Source: Pantoea allii
GTDB lineage: Bacteria; Pseudomonadota; Gammaproteobacteria; Enterobacterales; Enterobacteriaceae
Length of the DNA stretch: 64,000 bases
NCBI RefSeq assembly: GCF_002307475.1
Contig: NZ_NTMH01000011.1
Location: 62,001 to 126,000, forward strand
Reading direction: 5' to 3'
Part shown: positions 7,421-40,773 of the stretch, piece by piece
How positions within the stretch are numbered: position 1 is the first letter of the stretch
Layout: every line of letters starts with the position of its first letter
The notes under the pieces: generated by a model
Seen by the model: the letters and a program-made list of their open reading frames with translations, nothing else
Databases searched by the model: none
Told to the model about the DNA's origin: nothing
Translations under genes and position numbers: made by a program

Positions 7421-8373
7421 CAGCTCCTCCATTTCGGGTTAAAGGCGATAGTGACAATATCCGCCGCCAGCAGCAGCACAAGATAACAGCTGGCAAACAG
7501 CATTACGCAGAGCTGTACCACCGGCAGATCGCGATTACTGACCGCGTCGACCATCTGGCTGGCCAGACCCGGATAGCTGAAGATGGTTTCGATAATAATG
7601 ACCCCACCAAACAGGTAAGAAAGACTGAGGGAAATCGCGTTAGCAATGGGGCCGACGGCATTCGGTAAGGCATGGCGTAACACCGCCCGCATGGGGGAAA
7701 CCCCTTTGAGCAAGGCCATTTCAAGATAAGGGCTGTCGAGCTGGTTAATAATGGCCGCGCGGGTCATACGTGCCATTTGCGCGACCAGTCCGCAGCATAA
7801 CGTCATCACCGGCAACGCATAGGCTTTGATGTAGCTGGCGAAGTCCATACTGGGACTGCCCAGCGACATCGCAGAAACCCAGTGCAGCTTCACGGCAAAA
7901 ATCAGCACCGCAATCGTGGCCACCAGAAATTCCGGTACGGCCACCGTCGCCATCGTGCCAATCACCAACGCACGATCGAGTTTGGAGCCACGATTCATGG
8001 CCGCCGCGATACCAATAATCAGTGCGAGCGGCACACAAATCGCTGTGGTAGTAGCAGCGAGTTCAAAGGTGGCGGGAAGACGCTGCGCCACCAGCTGTGC
8101 GACCGGCAGATGACTTGCAAATGAGGTGCCAAAATTTCCCGTCAGCATGCCGCCAAGCCAGGTGAAATAGCGCACCAGCAGCGGCTGATCTAAACCGAGC
8201 TGCTGGCGCAAGGCCGCTACCGTTTCTGGCGTGGCGTTTTGCCCCAGGATCATTTGCGCCGCATCGCCCGGCAGCAGGCTGGTGATAAAAAATACCACCG
8301 CCGAGACGATAAGCAAGGTCAGGATGCCGGCGCCAATGCGCCGGGCAATCAGGAACATCATGTATCGGTTCAT
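7420..8373 (-). CDS. ABC importer permease, DppB type
   Basis: Inner-membrane permease of 317 residues. The N-terminal membrane segment RIGAGILTLLIVSAVVFFI is followed by the LLPGDAAQMILG periplasmic segment usual in DppB/OppB proteins. A later loop, RMTRAAIINQLDSPYLEMALLKG, precedes the ATPase-coupling segment with RHALPNAVGPI. Six membrane spans are expected. It follows the binding protein gene by 26 bp and is coupled to the DppC-type gene. The pairing with a Tat-exported binding protein and a fused ATPase differs from the classical dpp and opp operons. The substrate cannot be read from the permease sequence. Confidence 0.91.
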   Translation of the reverse strand: MNRYMMFLIARRIGAGILTLLIVSAVVFFITSLLPGDAAQMILGQNATPETVAALRQQLGLDQPLLVRYFTWLGGMLTGNFGTSFASHLPVAQLVAQRLPATFELAATTTAICVPLALIIGIAAAMNRGSKLDRALVIGTMATVAVPEFLVATIAVLIFAVKLHWVSAMSLGSPSMDFASYIKAYALPVMTLCCGLVAQMARMTRAAIINQLDSPYLEMALLKGVSPMRAVLRHALPNAVGPIANAISLSLSYLFGGVIIIETIFSYPGLASQMVDAVSNRDLPVVQLCVMLFASCYLVLLLAADIVTIAFNPKWRS

Positions 8374-8399
8374 CGGCGAACTCCTTCGTCAGACGATTA

Positions 8400-10007
8400 T
8401 CAGGCTGAAAGCCAGGCAAACTCATGGAAGCGATAGCCCATTAGCATGCCCGATGGCCAGGCCTCAAGGCCGTTAACCTTCTTGCTGTAGCCATCCATTG
8501 AACTGATAAATGCCGGGATGAGCGTGCCGCAGTGGTCATAGATCAGGGTTTGCATATCACCGTACATCTGCTTGCGTTTGGCTTTATCACGTTCACCGCG
8601 TGCCGCAATCACCAACTGGTCAAACTGGGGATTTTTCCAGCCGCTCTCGTTCGTGGAGGAGCTTGACAGGTAGAACTGGGAGAACAGCATATCCAGCGTT
8701 GGGCGCGGGTTGATCGAGCCGTAGCCGACCGGATCTTTCGTCCAGTGTGTTCCCCAGTAGCCTTCATACGGCACGCGCCGCACGTTAACGTTAAGCCCTG
8801 CGTTGCGCCCGACCTGCTGGATGAGCTGCGCCCCTTCCGTCGCGCCTTCCAGCGGCGGTGTGGTAATAATCTCTATCGACTGTCCGGTCATGCCCGCTTT
8901 GTTGATGTAAAACTTGGCTTTTTCAGGATCGAGCGGACGCGGTTTAAGATCGGCGTTAAACAGCGGATGCCACGGCGGAACCGGCGTGTCATTACTGACA
9001 TCGCCAAAGCCCTGCAGCACCGTTTTCACGATGATTTCTCTGGGCTGCAGGTATTTCATCGCCAGCACGAAATCCGGGTTGCTGCCGGGTTTGATATCGG
9101 TACGGATGATCAGGTTGGTATACATGCCGCCCTTGGTTTCAAGCACCGCGTGATCCGTCGTATGACCAATGCGCATACTGTCTGAGGCTTTCAGGCCCGA
9201 GGCCACCTGGATATCACCCGACAGCAGGGCGTTGACGCGGGCAGCCTGATCGGTAACGCCAAGCAGCTCCACTTCGTCCAGATGCGGCAGGCCCGGTTTA
9301 AAGTAGTTCGGGTTTTTGGTGCCCACGGTATTCACGCCAGGCGTAAAGCTCTTGCATACGAAGGGGCCAGTGCCGATCCCTTTGCTGAAATCTTTGGTGC
9401 CATCCTGAACAATCAGGAAGGGAGACGTGGTCAGCATATAGGGAAGATCAAAGTTAGGTGCCACGAGAACAAGCTGCACTTCATTATCGTTGACGGCAGT
9501 GATGGTCTTGAACTGTTCAGCAAGCTTGAATGCGCTGGAGGCAACGGCAGGATCTTTATGACGATTAAGCGAGAAAATCACATCCTTCGCGGTAAAAGGT
9601 TTACCGTCGTGGAAGGTAACACCTTTGCGCAGTTTAATGCTCCAGGTGATGCCGTCGTCAGAATCAACCGACTCTGCCAGGCCGGGCTTAACGGACATCG
9701 CCTTGTCGACCTCGGTCAGACAGCTGTAAAACATAAACTGGCGCGTGTAGTCGGCGCTGTTACTGCCTTTTGCCGGGTCCAGCGTATCGGTTGCAGACGC
9801 GTTAGACATCCCGACACGCAGTTTCCCGCCCTGTACGGGTTTGCTTTCCGCCAGCGCCATGCCGGGGAAGCCAATCAGTCCCGTGCTCATCACCGCACCG
9901 GCGGAGAGTAGCTTCATTAAACTGCGACGGGACAATGTGCCTTCAGTGATCATCCGCGTCAGAGCAGGATTGGTTACGTCAGATTCTTTATTATCAATTT
10001 TACTCAT
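8400..10007 (-). CDS. Family 5 extracellular solute-binding protein, predicted Tat export
   Basis: Periplasmic receptor of the importer, 535 residues, in the SBP_bac_5 (oligopeptide/dipeptide/nickel) family. The N-terminus has an SRRSLMKLL segment at residues 26-34 followed by a hydrophobic stretch ending in GMALAES, which looks like a twin-arginine signal peptide with cleavage near residue 53. Family landmarks include TDTLDPAKGSNSADYTRQ, ITWSIKLRKGVTFHDGKPFTAKDV and LNRHKDPA. Tat export is unusual for this family in enterobacteria, where DppA and OppA use Sec. A 147-bp gap separates it from the upstream flavin oxidase; I saw no clear terminator there. Neighbouring amine oxidases suggest a peptide-, opine- or amine-like ligand rather than a general dipeptide. 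Confidence 0.9.
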   Translation of the reverse strand: MSKIDNKESDVTNPALTRMITEGTLSRRSLMKLLSAGAVMSTGLIGFPGMALAESKPVQGGKLRVGMSNASATDTLDPAKGSNSADYTRQFMFYSCLTEVDKAMSVKPGLAESVDSDDGITWSIKLRKGVTFHDGKPFTAKDVIFSLNRHKDPAVASSAFKLAEQFKTITAVNDNEVQLVLVAPNFDLPYMLTTSPFLIVQDGTKDFSKGIGTGPFVCKSFTPGVNTVGTKNPNYFKPGLPHLDEVELLGVTDQAARVNALLSGDIQVASGLKASDSMRIGHTTDHAVLETKGGMYTNLIIRTDIKPGSNPDFVLAMKYLQPREIIVKTVLQGFGDVSNDTPVPPWHPLFNADLKPRPLDPEKAKFYINKAGMTGQSIEIITTPPLEGATEGAQLIQQVGRNAGLNVNVRRVPYEGYWGTHWTKDPVGYGSINPRPTLDMLFSQFYLSSSSTNESGWKNPQFDQLVIAARGERDKAKRKQMYGDMQTLIYDHCGTLIPAFISSMDGYSKKVNGLEAWPSGMLMGYRFHEFAWLSA

Positions 10008-22387: not shown

Positions 22388-22463
22388 TCCTCTGTAGTTC
22401 AGTCGGTAGAACGGCGGACTGTTAATCCGTATGTCACTGGTTCGAGTCCAGTCAGAGGAGCCA
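22388..22463 (+). tRNA. tRNA-Asn (anticodon GTT), copy 1
   Basis: A 76-base tRNA with encoded CCA. Acceptor arms TCCTCTG and CAGAGGA pair. The anticodon loop CTGTTAA carries GTT, and the T arm has GGTTCGAGTCC. The sequence is identical to the copies at 25595 and 37574. In E. coli, asn tRNAs also lie beside cbl-nac and serve as island insertion sites. Confidence 0.98.
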
Positions 22464-22473
22464 GATTTTGAAA

Positions 22474-22505
22474 AGCCCGCTCAGGGAAACCTGAGCGGGC
22501 TTTTT
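22474..22505 (+). terminator. Terminator of tRNA-Asn copy 1
   Basis: Perfect 12-bp stem AGCCCGCTCAGG / CCTGAGCGGGCT around GAAA, followed by TTTTT. The opposite strand would form the same stem with AAAA-derived T residues, so it may also stop the Ner-like gene whose last codons run into it. Confidence 0.93.
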
Positions 22506-22750
22506 GCTTGCTGGGGGTTAGCGTTTGTGGCGTCGCCCGGTAAGACGGCTGCATGGGAATAGCGCGATCGCCAAATCTTTTCCGGTTTAACCCCTAACGC
22601 AGCCGCAATAAGGCTTTCCCCTTTCGGCCAGGGCCGCGTGAGTGCATTGGCCAATGTGGATAAGGCCAAACCCGCCTTGCGCGACAGCGCTGTCTCTTGT
22701 TTCTTTATTCCCGCGATGATATCTGCCGGATGCCAGTCCTGATTTTCCAT
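22481..22750 (-). CDS. Ner/Nlp-like winged-helix DNA-binding regulator
   Basis: Small protein of 89 residues resembling phage Mu Ner and the chromosomal SfsB/Nlp regulators. MENQDWHPADIIAGIKKQ is followed by a helix-turn-helix LSRKAGLALSTLANALTRPWPKGE and IAAALGVKPEKIWRSRY, the normal Ner-family core. The tail is longer and unconserved. The ATG at 22750 follows GGAG by eight bases; an in-frame GTG three codons upstream is less likely. The stop codon lies inside the bidirectional tRNA terminator, showing that the gene was inserted or grew right up to the tRNA. It is divergent from the XRE gene across a 68-bp shared promoter. Confidence 0.82.
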   Translation of the reverse strand: MENQDWHPADIIAGIKKQETALSRKAGLALSTLANALTRPWPKGESLIAAALGVKPEKIWRSRYSHAAVLPGDATNANPQQAKSPLRFP

Positions 22751-22785
22751 CCTGCTCACTCCGCGTTATGCAAACGCATCGTATA

Positions 22786-22800
22786 ATCCCATTTTGGGAT
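22786..22800. promoter_or_regulatory. Palindromic operator between Ner-like and XRE genes
   Basis: ATCCCA-TTT-TGGGAT is a perfect six-base inverted repeat in the 68-bp divergent promoter, 18 bp before the XRE start. It is a good candidate for autoregulation by one or both neighbouring regulators. Confidence 0.6.
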
Positions 22801-22818
22801 AAAGATCGAGATAAAACG

Positions 22819-23076
22819 ATGTCGACTATCTATACAGAAGAATATCAACGCGTTGTTAAAGCATTACGTGATGCAAGAGTAGCGAAAGGCATTACCCAGC
22901 AGCGGCTGGCGGATGCGCTCAATAAACCCCAATCCTTTATCGCTAAGATTGAAAGTGGTGAGCGGCGATTAGATGTGATCGAGTTCGTCCATGTGGCACG
23001 GCTGCTGGGAATTGAGCCTGCGCCGCTTCTGGAGGAGATAGTGCCGAAACGAAAAATAGCGCTGAAACAGAATTGA
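22819..23076 (+). CDS. XRE-family helix-turn-helix regulator
   Basis: DNA-binding protein of 85 residues. The Cro/C1 helix-turn-helix spans about residues 12-66: LRDARVAKGITQQRLADALNK, then SFIAKIESGERRLDVIEFVHVARLLGIE. A short basic tail PKRKIALKQN ends it. The internal ATG at 22819 is preferred over the ORF start at 22768 because it gives the normal N-terminus MSTIYTEEYQRVVKAL and leaves the palindromic operator outside the gene. No toxin partner follows; the next 430 bp has no recognisable gene. It may regulate itself, the Ner-like gene, or a lost element. Confidence 0.85.
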   Translation: MSTIYTEEYQRVVKALRDARVAKGITQQRLADALNKPQSFIAKIESGERRLDVIEFVHVARLLGIEPAPLLEEIVPKRKIALKQN

Positions 23077-23507: not shown

Positions 23508-25307
23508 TTACAACACCTCTGCCCACGTCATAATCAGTTTGGCCTGCACAGGCTCGGCCAGCAGACTGGCATCTGGCTGCCAGCTGTCCCAGTCGCGGAA
23601 AGCACTGAAATCAAGCCCGGCCAGCGTTTCCAGCGAGCGGACAGAGACACGGTATTCGTCCACCTGCGGCACCGCTTCCGGCTGCAAGGAAGGCAACACG
23701 CGGCGCGGCTCATCCAGCAACTTATCCTGACTGACCAGCAAGGCGGTCGCCTGCGGTTTGCCCTGTGGCCCGATGCGCAGAACCACTTTCCAGAACATCA
23801 GCGGCACCTGTAACTCTCCATATTGCCGATGTTGATCGTTAAGTATCGGTCCGGTCAGCACGCTAATCTGCTGTTTGGTCTTGAGCACGCCATATTCCAG
23901 GATATAGCGCTCGACGCCTTGCCAGTACTGTACGCTCTGGTTAAAGCGAAAATGCTGCGGTGAGCAGTTGGTAAAATGAAACGTATCTTTGTTGGCGCGC
24001 ACCGCCTCGGCCGCCGTGCCCCAGGTGGGATCGCTGCGGCGAGTAAGATGACCGCGGTCGAACCAGCGGCTGAACGCACTATAGAACGACTGCCCGGTAA
24101 CGTAGCGGCTGTCGATGCGGCTGTCTTCAGACCAGCGATCGCCTTCGGGGAGCAGAGAAGGCTGCCCGCTGCCACGGTCAATGTTGATATAGCGCGCGCC
24201 ATCAATATTGGTGGCGGTGAAAAATGCCAGCTTGCGTTCAGCATTCATCAGCAGGGAAAAGTGTTCGTAATCCAGCCTTGCCTCAGCGCCGTTGCGCCCG
24301 TCACGCAGGGGCGCGACTTCACCGGAACGCGGGGCGATAATCGCGGCCATATCGATGTGGGTATCAGCCAGAAAGTCCGCCTGAAAACCGTCGCGGTTAC
24401 GATAATTTTCGTCCGGCGCGGCGGCACCTGGAAGCGCGTAGTCCGGTGCGGGTTCAGCCTTGAGTGCCTGCATCAGGATTGCCTGCCGGTCAGCAGGCAG
24501 CGTCGGCAGTTCGCCTTTCAGCCAGTCAGTGAGCGCGCTGATGCGTATACCTTCGTTAACCCATTTCCCGTTATCTTCAACACCGCCATGATGGAGTGCC
24601 ACCAGTTGCCAGCCATCGTTGAATACCGGCGCACCCGACGAGCCGCCTTCGCTGTCGGCCTCGTAGTGTAGAAACTGTTCGTGACGGGCTAACAGCGCAT
24701 TATTGCGCAGCGTAATTTGCTGTGGCGCACCAGCCGGGTGATGGATCAGATTAAGGCTGATGCCCAGTGCATGTTTATCGTTGCGATCGTTAAGCGCCAG
24801 CGGCAACGGATTCTCAGCGCTGTCGTTAAGCGCTTCTCCCAGCGCGACTAGCGTGCAGTCAAAGGCGTCCGTCGGACTGGTAAGCCAAAAGCGTTCTGCA
24901 TCTACGCTATAAAGACGCCCCTGAATAAGCTCGTCCGCCTCGCCCTGACGGTAGCCGAACTGAAGTGTAATACGGCCTGATGCCGCGGGGTCAGACAGCA
25001 GATGATGGTTAGTCACAAAGAGGTTGCCGTGGGTGAGAAATCCACTGCCTTTCGGCACGCCATCTTCTCTGACCAGCGCCACGGCTTTGGCCGCGCGCAA
25101 TCCTTGCTGCAAAAAAGATACCGGTAGCAGATCGTTCGTGCCGATGATGACACTCTGGCGGGCGCGTTGCTGAAACGCATAGCGTTGCGCGCGTCGTTGA
25201 TCCGGCTCCGCCTGCTGGCCCTGGCTGAGCGCTGTGCGTGTCTGCTGTCGTTGTCCGGCCGTTACCGCCAGCCTTGCGGCTATCTGCGCTTTCAGTTGCT
25301 CGTTCAT
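23508..25307 (-). CDS. Trypsin-like serine protease fused to a DRGH (beta-beta-alpha metal) endonuclease
   Basis: A 599-residue two-enzyme protein. The first part (about 70-265) is a V8/trypsin-like protease: catalytic His102 in FVTNHHLL, Asp150 in DAFDCTLVAL and Ser224 in EGGSSGAPVF, with ALHHGG after it. The second part (about 310-590) is a DNA/RNA non-specific endonuclease: DRGH at 417-420, then FTNCSPQ at 445-451, with Asn456 in FNQ and Trp462/Glu466 in the following helix, the layout of Serratia-type nucleases. All key residues of both enzymes are present. There is no signal peptide; residues 1-55 are Gln/Arg-rich and probably a helical lead. The ATG at 25307 follows GGAGAGG by three bases. 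It stands alone between two tRNA-Asn genes. A cell-suicide or phage-defence effector whose nuclease is released or controlled by proteolysis is a reasonable inference, not shown. Confidence 0.9.
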   Translation of the reverse strand: MNEQLKAQIAARLAVTAGQRQQTRTALSQGQQAEPDQRRAQRYAFQQRARQSVIIGTNDLLPVSFLQQGLRAAKAVALVREDGVPKGSGFLTHGNLFVTNHHLLSDPAASGRITLQFGYRQGEADELIQGRLYSVDAERFWLTSPTDAFDCTLVALGEALNDSAENPLPLALNDRNDKHALGISLNLIHHPAGAPQQITLRNNALLARHEQFLHYEADSEGGSSGAPVFNDGWQLVALHHGGVEDNGKWVNEGIRISALTDWLKGELPTLPADRQAILMQALKAEPAPDYALPGAAAPDENYRNRDGFQADFLADTHIDMAAIIAPRSGEVAPLRDGRNGAEARLDYEHFSLLMNAERKLAFFTATNIDGARYINIDRGSGQPSLLPEGDRWSEDSRIDSRYVTGQSFYSAFSRWFDRGHLTRRSDPTWGTAAEAVRANKDTFHFTNCSPQHFRFNQSVQYWQGVERYILEYGVLKTKQQISVLTGPILNDQHRQYGELQVPLMFWKVVLRIGPQGKPQATALLVSQDKLLDEPRRVLPSLQPEAVPQVDEYRVSVRSLETLAGLDFSAFRDWDSWQPDASLLAEPVQAKLIMTWAEVL

Positions 25308-25548
25308 TCGCCTCTCCGTGATAAGGTTATGCACCCTTTTAACCATAGCTGCTGCTTATCACGGCACAAGCGGCGCGAATATCACCGCGCGCACCAACGC
25401 CCTGCCCTCATCCGTTAAGGGCCAGGTCATGTATCTGAAAGGCGATTGAACGAATGCTTAAATGGAACCTTACAAAGGGACTATTGCGGGCGAAATAACC
25501 AGGCTGTTGAAACCTTCAGCAAAGGGTTCAGAAGCCGGTAAAACCGCT

Positions 25549-25594: not shown

Positions 25595-25670
25595 TCCTCT
25601 GTAGTTCAGTCGGTAGAACGGCGGACTGTTAATCCGTATGTCACTGGTTCGAGTCCAGTCAGAGGAGCCA
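25595..25670 (+). tRNA. tRNA-Asn (anticodon GTT), copy 2
   Basis: Identical in all 76 bases to copies 1 and 3, including CCA. Unlike them it lacks the GC-rich terminator within 45 bp; only a weak hairpin (GATGTATG / CATGCATC) follows. The normal terminator is found 5.1 kb downstream, indicating insertion of an island at the 3' end of this gene. Confidence 0.98.
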
Positions 25671-25673: not shown

Positions 25674-25831
25674 GTATGTTTTCATGCATCTTCCCGAATC
25701 TTTATACGATTAAAATTCAACAGGTTAGCGTGAAAAGTCTTTCCGATGCATTTTCATTTTCCCCTCCGCATCGGGAAAGATTGGTGGTCTGATTTGGGGT
25801 CATTTCAGTTCGATAATGGCGTAACCACTCT

Positions 25832-26202
25832 ACGTCCCTGAACGACACGACAATCCGCAGCGTAAAACCATCCGCTAAACCTTACAAAGTTTCCGATTCT
25901 CATGGCCTGTCCCTTTTCGTCAATCCAGCCGGTTCACGTCTCTGGTGTCTCAAATATCGTATCAATGGTAAAGAATCCCGCCTCGGCTTAGGTGCCTATC
26001 CCGATGTTTCTCTGGCTTATGCCCGGCAGCAACGTGATGGCATACGCAAGGTGCTGGCGCAGAATATCAATCCAGCACAGCAACGTATCGCCAGGAAAGC
26101 TGCCCGCTCACCGGAAAAAACGTTTAAGCACATTGCATTGAGCTGGCACAAGCGCAACAGAACATGGTCACAGAACCACTCCGTCCGTCTGCTTGCCAGT
26201 CT
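25832..26202 (+). pseudogene. Truncated P4-type tyrosine integrase
   Basis: N-terminal third of a P4-like phage/island integrase that once recombined at the tRNA. The frame reads TSLNDTTIRSVKPSAKPYKVSDSHGL, then LFVNPAGSRLWCLKYRINGKESRLGLGAYPDVSLA, which is the family's arm-binding domain, and continues to TFKHIALSWHKRN and NHSVRLLASL. The expected start codon is ACG instead of ATG at 25832, and homology ends abruptly near 26202 where it meets a fragment of a different gene on the other strand. The catalytic domain is absent. It is in the standard place and direction, about 160 bp past tRNA-Asn copy 2. Confidence 0.85.
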
Positions 26203-26365
26203 CCGGTTTTTTTCCTTCCCATATACCAGGGTCAGTCCCGCAGATTGTCGTTTTGGTTAGTTTAATAATGGCATCAGTAGCTTCCATAACCGTTGGACGA
26301 ACCCTTTCCTCAACACGAATATCATTTTTCCCGTGATAAACCATTGCTTTCATTTTTCTTTGCAT
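26203..26365 (-). pseudogene. N-terminal fragment of a zinc-type alcohol dehydrogenase
   Basis: The frame starting at ATG 26365 reads MQRKMKAMVYHGKNDIRVEE and RPTVMEATDAIIKLTKTTICGTD, the normal start of medium-chain zinc alcohol dehydrogenases, including the first zinc-ligand cysteine in CGTD. Homology stops after GIWEGKKPE, at the same point where the integrase fragment ends on the other strand. GAAGGGTGATTAAC precedes the ATG, so the 5' signals are intact. About 50 of some 350 residues remain, so it cannot be functional. Confidence 0.8.
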
Positions 26366-38903: not shown

Positions 38904-39740
38904 TTATGGGAATTTTAAGTTGATAAGAGTACTGTACTGCGTGCGTGACAGACTTAGCGGTGACTGGTTTCTGAAAAAAACTTTCACAAACGGGTTGCTG
39001 GTGCCATACAGCTCGACACGCTTATATTCATTGTGAATAAACTGCTGCAGGATAGTCGCCATATCCTGCGCCAGGTCCGGTGTCATCGCGTTATGAGAGG
39101 CTACGGTTTGCTCAAAGCTGAGTGGTATGCGCATTTCCGTATCAGGTTTAAAATTGGCACGTTTACGTTCAGCTTCCACTTTAAACTCTTCAAAGGCTTC
39201 GTGTGTTGAATTGAATGTATCAGCCAGCGTTTTGATATGTGCAGCCATCTGGTTAACAGCAAACGTTCTTTTTGTGACGAAATAGCCGCCTACACTCGAA
39301 GCGATGGACGCAATAACAGGAAGAGAACCACGCCCAATAATACTTCCCAGACCATTTAAGGCTGACCATAAGGCCATACCTGTCGCGCCGGTAGAGCTGG
39401 CTACAGCACCTGTCACAATCATACTCGCCTGCTGTACTTTTACGCCCGCAATACGATTATCCAGGCGACGAATCTCCCCGCCCGGTTTTCTATGCGACGC
39501 AGACTCTTCATTCCAGCTTTTGAAGCGGCGGTTATTTTCATCTTTATAATTCGACATCGCATAGGCAATCTGGCTTGTTTCCGTTTTACTGAGCTGGGCG
39601 ATTTCTTTTGGCTCAAACGATCTGACTAAAATCAGGGCTTCTTCAAGCACCTCTTTTGTCAGAAAATTAGCGGAACCCGCAGGGTTAGAACCAGGGTCCG
39701 TAGTAAGGCCCTCAATAAGGTTAACTTTGGGAAATGCCAT
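38904..39740 (-). CDS. Putative type VI effector encoded with Hcp, membrane-insertion candidate
   Basis: 278 residues, no recognised enzyme domain and no signal peptide. An N-terminal soluble part (1-103) is followed by two hydrophobic Gly/Ala/Ser-rich segments at about 104-133 and 138-156, ending before FVTKRTF. Then comes a charged helical part (about 160-205), with EEFKVEAERKRANF, and a tail ending in LSLSRTQYSTLINLKF. The hairpin of two membrane helices in an otherwise soluble protein suggests a pore-forming or membrane-disrupting toxin. It is the third gene in a row after two Hcp genes, 36 bp after hcp copy 2. Effectors carried behind Hcp are loaded into the Hcp ring in known systems; that this one is an effector is inferred from position and layout. 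No immunity gene is apparent on the downstream side. Confidence 0.6.
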   Translation of the reverse strand: MAFPKVNLIEGLTTDPGSNPAGSANFLTKEVLEEALILVRSFEPKEIAQLSKTETSQIAYAMSNYKDENNRRFKSWNEESASHRKPGGEIRRLDNRIAGVKVQQASMIVTGAVASSTGATGMALWSALNGLGSIIGRGSLPVIASIASSVGGYFVTKRTFAVNQMAAHIKTLADTFNSTHEAFEEFKVEAERKRANFKPDTEMRIPLSFEQTVASHNAMTPDLAQDMATILQQFIHNEYKRVELYGTSNPFVKVFFRNQSPLSLSRTQYSTLINLKFP

Positions 39741-39776: not shown

Positions 39777-40259
39777 TTAGCTTTCTTTATTTTGTTTAAT
39801 ATCCCAGCCCATCTGCACCGAGGCTGCTTTACTTCCCTGAGAAGCCTGCTCCCAGTATTCCAGTGCCACTTTGCTGGCCTGAAATGCGTATTGCATCCCC
39901 AGCGTGGAGGCGTGACCGACTCCGGTAAAGTCAGTCTGTGTCACCAATACATCTTCCAGCGTGATACGGGTATACTCCACTTCCTGTCCGCCCGCTTTAC
40001 AGACAGACAGTTGAACTTTTGGCAGATGTTTACCGGTGGCGCAATATTTCACTAAAGCAGGCGTGGCTTTATCGATCAATGCCTCAACGCTTAGATCATG
40101 ATAATTAACTTTCCCTGCTCCACCGCCGCCGCCAACAGCCATATTGCCTGGCTGCTGCGCTCCCCAGTTAAATGACAGGACATCAATCCATTTTTTATGA
40201 TTCGCATTTTGCGATTCGCCTTCGATTCCATCTATTTTTAAAAATATATCAATAGCCAT
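39777..40259 (-). CDS. hcp: Hcp-family type VI secretion tube protein, copy 2
   Basis: 160 residues, the normal Hcp length. Begins MAIDIFLKIDGIEGESQN and contains HKKWIDVLSFNWGAQQPG, GGGGGAGKVNYHDLSVEALIDKATPAL and the C-terminal WDIKQNKES. Hcp hexamers form the inner tube of the type VI secretion system and carry small effectors. The Gly-rich loop GGGGGAG is the extended loop typical of Hcp1. It differs from copy 1 over most of its length but shares the ends, so it is an old duplication. It lies 31 bp after copy 1. No other type VI component is in the window. Confidence 0.93.
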   Translation of the reverse strand: MAIDIFLKIDGIEGESQNANHKKWIDVLSFNWGAQQPGNMAVGGGGGAGKVNYHDLSVEALIDKATPALVKYCATGKHLPKVQLSVCKAGGQEVEYTRITLEDVLVTQTDFTGVGHASTLGMQYAFQASKVALEYWEQASQGSKAASVQMGWDIKQNKES

Positions 40260-40290: not shown

Positions 40291-40773
40291 TCAGCTCTCT
40301 TTATTTTGTTTAATATCCCAACCGGCTTTGGTTTCCGCGCCTTTGGTGCCGCTTGCGCTTTGTTCCCAATAGCTGGTTGAAACTTTGGATGCCTGAAAAG
40401 CGTAGTCAACCACAATAGTGTCACTTTGCCCGATGCCGTTGAAATTGGTCGCGGTAACCAGAACATCTTCTAATACGATTTTGGAATACTCGACCTGGCT
40501 TCCACCGGCTTTACAGACGGACAGTTCAACTTTTGAAACATGCTTTCCGCTGGAACAGTATTTAAGGATAGCAGGCGTGGATTTATCGATTAGCGCTTTA
40601 ACACGCAGATCGTTGAAATTCACTTTCCCTGCGCCGCCACCGCCTCCCACCGCCATATTGCCGGGTTGTGAAGCCCCCCAGTCAAATGACAGCACGTCGG
40701 TCCATCCTTTATGGTTACTGTCCTGGGATTCTCCTGTGGTACCTTCAACTTTCAAATAAATATCGATCGCCAT
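40291..40773 (-). CDS. hcp: Hcp-family type VI secretion tube protein, copy 1
   Basis: 160 residues. MAIDIYLKVEGTTGESQDSNHKGW, then VLSFDWGASQPG, GGGGGAGKVNFNDLRVKALIDKS, and the same WDIKQNKES end as copy 2. Both copies keep the Hcp fold landmarks. It is the first gene of the cassette, with a 490-bp AT-rich upstream gap that must hold the promoter. The two ends are so alike that recombination between copies would delete one gene. Confidence 0.93.
   Translation of the reverse strand: MAIDIYLKVEGTTGESQDSNHKGWTDVLSFDWGASQPGNMAVGGGGGAGKVNFNDLRVKALIDKSTPAILKYCSSGKHVSKVELSVCKAGGSQVEYSKIVLEDVLVTATNFNGIGQSDTIVVDYAFQASKVSTSYWEQSASGTKGAETKAGWDIKQNKES

Follow-up and report, generated by a model that had tools for sequence, protein, structure and literature searches.

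In a 64,000-nucleotide stretch of Pantoea allii DNA (contig NZ_NTMH01000011.1; the whole stretch is called the window below) a gene at 23508..25307 on the minus strand encodes a 599-residue protein that joins a trypsin/V8-like serine protease to an EndoG/NucA-type nuclease. We tentatively propose, as a reading that is plausible though short of probable, that this protein, encoded by a single solitary gene, is related to the NucA-trypsin conflict systems and acts as a latent intracellular effector whose own protease frees or activates its nuclease. In the putative mechanism the EndoG-type nuclease, tethered to its V8-like protease, would be held latent inside the cell until some trigger leads the protease to cut the connection or otherwise activate the nuclease, acting on the link itself or on a second copy of the protein, and the freed nuclease would then destroy nucleic acid, so that an infected or damaged cell is stopped through abortive infection or death. 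We infer each of these steps, from enzyme activity and latency through the trigger and cleavage or activation to the outcome. What sequence and comparison support is a protein of two domains with conserved sites, a flexible linker (a low-confidence part of the model), purifying selection, no constant partner and replacement of the nuclease among relatives.

Pfam places Trypsin_2 at residues 87-238 (E 2e-14) and Endonuclease_NS at residues 339-568 (E 3e-40), and the AlphaFold2 model (mean predicted local distance difference test, pLDDT, 87.8; predicted template modelling score, pTM, 0.53) is best described as two confidently predicted modules joined by an uncertain link, plus a helical module at the N-terminus. 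The predicted helical module covers residues 1-56 (25140..25307, on the minus strand like all parts of the gene given here), with helices at 3-15, 17-28 and 37-48 and a block-wise pLDDT that goes from 90-95 over residues 1-30 down to 69 and 56 over residues 41-60. The protease domain, delimited from Trypsin_2 and Foldseek folds, spans residues 57-266 (24510..25139); the linker, partly disordered by pLDDT (residues 287-296 below 50) and fast evolving by substitution rates, spans residues 267-300 (24408..24509); and the nuclease domain, delimited from Endonuclease_NS, folds and the EndoG match, spans residues 301-575 (23583..24407). Both active sites named in an earlier, sequence-only reading are present at the positions it gave: the protease triad His102 (codon 25002-25004), Asp150 (24858-24860) and Ser224 (24636-24638), and the nuclease site of DRGH 417-420 with His420 (24048-24050), Asn456 (23940-23942) and Glu466 (23910-23912), a DRGH-N-E arrangement typical of the EndoG/NucA family. 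All of these catalytic residues are invariant in a 19-sequence alignment, and H102, D150, S224, H420, N456 and E466 are invariant across a 63-sequence alignment.

Foldseek returned the FAM111A protease and staphylococcal Esp as protease-type matches and EndoG, EXOG and Anabaena NucA as nuclease-type matches; NPP3 and autotaxin, also ranked (root-mean-square deviations of 24-25), were taken as spurious. A profile search likewise gave EndoG (1e-12), NucA (5e-11) and V8 with other staphylococcal S1 proteases (6e-10 to 1e-9). The likeness to these proteins is one of fold, domain by domain: EndoG, EXOG and NucA lack a fused protease, EndoG being mitochondrial and NucA having an inhibitor, NuiA, according to the titles of the structure matches, and neither the V8/Esp glutamyl endopeptidases nor FAM111A carries a nuclease. 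The staphylococcal V8/Esp members are secreted, and FAM111A is human. The fusion itself lies far beyond chance, since 118 of the 120 homologues listed, the best of 632, hold both domains; the named close homologues belong to Pantoea, Erwinia and Mixta.

Both enzymes appear to be kept by purifying selection while the linker drifts, as judged from ratios of nonsynonymous to synonymous substitution rates (dN/dS) whose medians among 10 Erwiniaceae sequences are low for the nuclease (0.10) and protease (0.13) and high for the linker (0.51), with the N-terminus at 0.20. These values are rough because dS was high (medians 0.8-1.3); they come from 42-45 valid pairs of 45 and from 10 of the 16 sequences recovered from the window and 16 loci, L006 not being recovered.

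The sequence-only reading had taken the protein for an undescribed defense or programmed-death protein. The conflict-system part of that claim is consistent with the intact and conserved sites, the purifying selection, the patchy occurrence described below, the flexible link and the prediction of the class in print; the word undescribed does not stand. The trypsin plus Endonuclease_NS architecture was already noted in 2008 (PMC2605481), and NucA-trypsin systems go back to Kaur et al. 2020 (PMC7159879), who defined them and predicted that the protease drives deployment of the nuclease, with operon partners (further peptidases, EAD1 proteins, a STAND ATPase) that are optional and occur in a subset. 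Banks et al. 2026 (PMC13236601) then tested a protein of the same layout, Caulobacter LypC, a trypsin-linker-endonuclease protein of the CARD-NLR-like operon LypABC, and Tuck et al. 2025 (PMC12799240) demonstrated that a trypsin-like protease activates an MBL pro-nuclease. The NucA-trypsin prediction, the tested MBL nuclease and the essential protease of LypC thus provide precedent for a latent, protease-gated nuclease (PMC7159879, PMC12799240, PMC13236601).

Each of these precedents differs from the Pantoea protein in a definable way. NucA-trypsin System 3 shares the combination of an Endonuclease_NS/NucA nuclease and a trypsin-like peptidase in one protein, whereas no operon partner, EAD1 protein, STAND ATPase or transmembrane segment was seen with the Pantoea gene, and System 3 is found mostly in alphaproteobacteria, the window's gene in Erwiniaceae (PMC7159879). 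In the Hachiman, AVAST, Lamassu and DRT systems a trypsin-like protease is likewise paired with a nuclease that proteolysis turns on, but there the nuclease has an MBL fold and its own gene and the protease sits on another defense protein, while the window encodes a fused EndoG-type enzyme (PMC12799240). LypC, compared by layout alone, is alike in its N-terminal trypsin-like domain, flexible linker and C-terminal endonuclease with a His/Asn site; it acts with LypA (CARD-trypsin-ATPase) and LypB (NLR) (PMC13236601), neither of which was found for the Pantoea gene. In a two-hybrid assay LypC bound neither LypA nor LypB (PMC13236601). A LypA-type protein was sought in the window's own genome among 6 Trypsin_2 matches (5 over the cut-off), where the frames other than the fusion, of 487, 473, 356, 281 and 338 residues, are all shorter than LypA (592 residues or more).

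The LypC mutants also carry the evidence for a different account, in which the protease would act first by cutting another cell protein, causing lysis or arrest, and the nuclease domain would be a stabilizer or a secondary clean-up activity. Mutation S296A abolished LypC-dependent lysis, whereas H471A and N505A, alone or combined, left it intact (PMC13236601). In the same direction, the His-Asp-Ser triad is intact in 303 of the 304 relatives that we collected, whatever the C-terminal domain (the exception, P0046, is a headless fragment). The Erwiniaceae nuclease, by contrast, is constrained at least as strongly as the protease, and the invariance of H420, N456 and E466 together with its dN/dS implies that the nuclease is probably used; nor does the Pantoea gene have a LypA- or LypB-like neighbor. 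We therefore regard such a protease-first action as rather unlikely for the Pantoea protein.

The head of the protein (residues 1-275) is not confined to nucleases. A search with it returned 886 proteins, and among the best 120 listed 10 lack Endonuclease_NS, 7 of these carrying Lipase_3, Endonuclease_1 or PLDc_2 instead; a further 3 carry Lipase_3 together with Endonuclease_NS. With a lipase member's head as query, 3223 proteins came back, of which the 120 listed comprise 54 with Lipase_3, 53 with Endonuclease_1, 3 with PLDc_2 and 10 with none (hand count of Pfam matches). Since these samples were chosen by the queries and drawn from limited lists, the best-scoring candidates of both searches, the proportions of C-terminal warheads are not population frequencies. 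Five of the 10 listed heads without a Pfam effector were inspected by eye; four look like lipase or Endonuclease I members with disrupted frames and the fifth stops at the linker motif described below, so we claim no new effector type. Parsimony on a tree of 103 heads counts 6 switches of C-terminal type, against a minimum of 4 for five types and 50 with shuffled labels; the tree is flagged for long-branch joins, the Erwiniaceae included, and its well-supported branches force fewer than 6 changes. The warhead types thus appear to follow clades for the most part, with a few exchanges.

In many relatives a short, strand-like motif with the consensus ATWTIPLxVSVSLG lies between head and warhead. 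A simple pattern for it, composed after the sequences had been viewed, occurs in 201 of 303 proteins and in 0 to 0.45% of shuffled linkers, the shuffles preserving composition and not kinship. Broken down into classes set by sequence pattern, the counts are 87 of 160 for nucleases, 51 of 56 for lipases, 42 of 53 for Endonuclease I proteins, 0 of 3 for nuclease-plus-lipase proteins and 21 of 31 for the unassigned; the pattern is absent from all 45 closest relatives (P0001-P0045) and from the window protein. The linker is disordered in both predicted structures, that of the window protein and that of a lipase member, P0175, whose linker (residues 340-412, holding the motif) has a pLDDT of about 32-40, so that no docking of the motif within a single chain is predicted. 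Its retention in a disordered linker ahead of unrelated enzymes suggests a site of cutting, docking or assembly. A wider proposal, possible yet doubtful, is that of a large, self-contained and NLR-free family of death effectors with a helical plus V8-like protease head akin to EAD1-trypsins, an exchangeable warhead (EndoG-type nuclease, Endonuclease I, class-3 lipase or PLD) and, in many lineages, the motif as a strand-forming switch where the head would cut, dock or self-assemble to fire the warhead; the Erwiniaceae form would be a minimal version after loss of the motif. Neither the exchange of the nuclease for a lipase, Endonuclease I or PLD domain behind this head nor the linker motif was found in our searches of open-licence full texts. 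For the CARD-NLR gasdermin systems of Wein et al. 2025, PMC13236601 states that phospholipases or endonucleases can take the place of gasdermins, so some of this exchange of effectors may already have been described there.

The kinship of the head was traced through a NucA-trypsin operon, L129:4528-16741, whose genes run from a trypsin-Endonuclease_NS fusion through a protein weakly resembling lysozyme/pesticin, a trypsin, a 644-residue trypsin protein of LypA-like size and a 1097-residue AAA_16/NB-ARC-like protein to an EAD1-trypsin, a conflict-type arrangement that connects NucA-trypsin System 3 with a set resembling LypABC. Over the nuclease the L129 fusion shares 31% identity with the window protein, over the protease hardly any similarity, and its own protease matched 1 of 68 family loci; the LypA-like protease matched 50 of 68, weakly (best 6e-9). 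The EAD1-trypsin, however, matched 65 of the 68 loci, and all 65 matches were family heads (best 4e-40 at full length and 6e-33 for the protease part, which matched in 65 of 68 loci and in 16 of 17 Erwiniaceae loci, best 2e-24 in the latter). No locus among the 68 was matched by the EAD1 part, by the 397-residue trypsin of L129 or by three other trypsin-type proteins of the window's genome, and none holds a second head; the L129 NLR, used as query for a LypB-type protein, had no relative in the 68 loci or in the window. An EAD1 search of the window's own genome gave 0 matches, as did its control search. The solitary family and the operon therefore share parts in rearranged form: as far as sequence comparison can tell, the operon protease carries EAD1 and the solitary-family protease carries its effector. 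Relative to the published systems, and as far as the open-licence full texts searched show, what is new here is the solitary form, with no NLR in the window or the 68 loci, the warhead exchange, the linker motif and the kinship of the head with EAD1-trypsins.

The gene is accessory and patchy. It occurs in 11 of 61 genomes of the genus (own genome included; one copy is broken by two stops), against 57 of 61 for a TetR-type gene of the same region, and in 4 of 198 genomes of a family sample, again including its own. In the class of Pleomorphomonas a relative at 1e-20 was found in 3 of 289 sampled genomes, the center genome counted, and 112 of 72,556 plasmid records match, 56 of them within five listed rhizobial genera.

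Several observations weigh against a latent nuclease released by its own protease. The strongest are the dispensability of the LypC nuclease site (PMC13236601), which counts against the simplest form of the sequence-only idea that a protease is carried on the nuclease it may release, and the existence of stand-alone nucleases without such an adjoining protease. One species' LypC even lacks the nuclease domain (PMC13236601). The stand-alone relatives (L081, L084, L091, L103 and L104, with target genes near 7850-8970) occur in Pseudomonas, Salinicola, Thiothrix and Chitinophaga, and those listed have no signal peptide or adjoining protease, as judged by eye. A search for the protease head in 6 stand-alone-nuclease genomes gave 1 match, a weak one, and a protease supplied in trans was accordingly set aside for these nucleases. 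Further, the pTM of 0.53 gives no support for an inhibited pose with the protease over the nuclease, the linker is the least conserved part in Erwiniaceae and shows no conserved cut site, a strict-pattern search of 16 upstream stretches found no LexA box, and a phage collection yielded 0 matches to the window protein; control by the SOS response and a phage origin were both rejected on these last two results. Two plasmid relatives lie by secretion genes, and defense-type neighbors are not clearly enriched, as set out below. Separately, the Thiothrix stand-alone nuclease (L091:7848-8864) holds MTIDIPLRITVSIG near its N-terminus, which resembles the linker motif of the fused family and might mark the enzyme for a protease acting in trans; the Thiothrix genome gave one weak head-like match.

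Enrichment was assessed with PADLOC models at 1e-10 on 113 of 125 neighbors (12 dropped by hand) from the 39 of 42 loci (L039-L079, L094) that gave the target gene, and on 53 of 60 control neighbors (7 dropped) from 17 of 21 stand-alone-nuclease loci. The family loci gave 6 subtilases and single members of other families, GajB, RTasHel and LmuA among them (25 of 49 neighbor families listed), and the control gave single members for SoFic, PDC-S04 and PDC-S24, so that there is no clear enrichment over control. Outside the Erwiniaceae the neighbors vary; recurrent types among the 113 were the 6 subtilases, 4 C92 papain-like peptidases (Bacillales), 3-4 HAMP/chemoreceptor genes and 3 two-component genes. 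In the Bacillales loci L045, L048, L049 and L050 a C92 papain-like amidase gene lies directly downstream, and subtilase-type genes recur nearby. The window protein itself had no NCBIfam match, and in PADLOC its protease part alone matched RT-Protease_XI models (E 5e-7), with no model spanning most of the protein.

These results bear on an account outside conflict altogether, in which the protein would be an ordinary intracellular or scavenging degrader that recycles both protein and nucleic acid. The lack of a clear enrichment, the many neighbors that are transporters, regulators, chemoreceptors or metabolic genes, and the stand-alone nucleases of the same type without signal peptide all agree with it. 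A constitutive non-specific cytosolic nuclease would, however, harm its own cell, and nuclease, lipase and PLD make up a typical effector list. The presence of the gene in 11 of 61 genomes of one genus is also hard to square with a recycling role, as are some of the nine annotated plasmid contexts, whose neighbors are of conflict type (SIR2 with an ATPase; PLD, patatin, pYEATS and HEPN/Toprim); others hold a gsp operon, groEL, a chemoreceptor or type I secretion genes. On balance we consider a scavenging role improbable.

A further alternative would be export or injection, as through type VI secretion, in which case the protease would work in the target. It is favored by two Hcp genes about 14 kb away in the window and by two plasmid relatives, one near type I secretion genes and one, on a Cupriavidus plasmid (L106:5992-8097), flanked by gspF and gspG within a type II secretion (gsp) operon. 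The Hcp genes have no relatives in the Erwiniaceae stretches (a search that did not extend to VgrG or other secretion genes), and no candidate immunity gene constantly travels with the fusion gene in the Erwiniaceae loci, in keeping with the sequence-only reading. That reading had also noted the absence of a signal peptide, and hydropathy, used here in place of a signal-peptide program, agrees: the best 15-residue mean within the first 60 residues is 0.59 and the best 19-residue mean overall is 1.03, indicating no hydrophobic N-terminus and no membrane segment, unlike the secreted Serratia-type nuclease with its N-terminal secretion signal. Among relatives above 400 residues, 3 of 301 exceed the N-terminal hydropathy threshold and 2 have a membrane-like stretch. 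Taken together, we judge export very unlikely. The Hcp genes are tandem T6SS_HCP genes (39777-40259 and 40291-40773, minus strand), followed by a gene for a 278-residue protein without Pfam match (38904-39740, minus strand), about 1.3 kb past a third tRNA-Asn (37574), and look like an orphan Hcp/effector cluster.

The coordinates 23508..25307 of the sequence-only reading hold, and the gene is now oriented on the minus strand, the plus strand having 7 stops across this interval; it runs from ATG 25307 to a stop at 23508-23510. Mechanical calling of open reading frames offers an alternative start at ATG 25346 (612 residues), which we reject in favor of the 599-residue start because ATG 25346 falls within a conserved upstream element and a Shine-Dalgarno-like GGAGAGG (25311..25317, minus strand) precedes 25307. 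The element, GCTATGGTTAAA (25338..25349, minus strand), resembles a promoter -10 box and may act as one; its core CTATGGTTA is kept in 16 of 16 Erwiniaceae upstream stretches and the whole 12 bases in 10 of 16 (counted by eye).

As the sequence-only reading had noted, the gene lies between two tRNA-Asn(gtt) genes, at 22388..22463 and 25595..25670 (both plus strand), which share an 84-nucleotide stretch, 99% identical, around the full tRNA genes. Among 17 Erwiniaceae loci the gene has tRNA-Asn, core genes or both at its side, in two contexts or more, with tRNA-Asn within the fetched stretch in 14; since relatives thus carry the solitary gene in more than one context, the tRNA-Asn pair alone is no mark of a mobile island. 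One context is a ribose-type transporter/TetR/FAD-oxidase region; in the other, seen in five Pantoea genomes (L018-L022) and unlike the window's setting, the gene sits between a transporter operon and an SDR-type gene, the names of the transporter, TetR-type, oxidase and SDR-type neighbors being in part our presumption. No neighbor is constant across the 17 loci. Six gene-less Pantoea stretches, one of just 6.6 kb, retain the TetR-oxidase neighbors, and a mobile island between the tRNA-Asn genes was rejected as the main account on this and the several solitary contexts. The TetR-type gene adjoins the fusion gene in 6 of 17 loci, divergently in 3 and convergently in 3, and because both orientations occur and it is found with or without the fusion gene we do not take it as a partner or dedicated regulator. 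Adjoining the tRNA-Asn at 22388 are two divergent small helix-turn-helix genes (22481-22759, minus strand, PF13693 winged; 22768-23076, plus strand, HTH_3; Pfam); a toxin-antitoxin arrangement with them was discarded, no relative of theirs standing beside the fusion gene in the Erwiniaceae stretches compared. Beside the tRNA-Asn at 25595, an open stretch at about 25802-26256 (plus strand) breaks off; it resembles the N-terminal part of a tRNA-targeting integrase and is, we presume, probably an integrase remnant.

If the proposal of a latent effector activated by its own protease is correct, the Pantoea protein would be a one-gene counterpart of a protease-then-nuclease death step that is spread over several genes elsewhere, with an exchangeable nuclease, and it would link NucA-trypsin systems, CARD-NLR/LypABC and protease-gated nucleases, which have been published separately. 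It would also allow the gating of an effector by a fused protease to be tested simply, with a single protein and two point mutants. The linker motif common to unrelated enzymes is a concrete site for testing.

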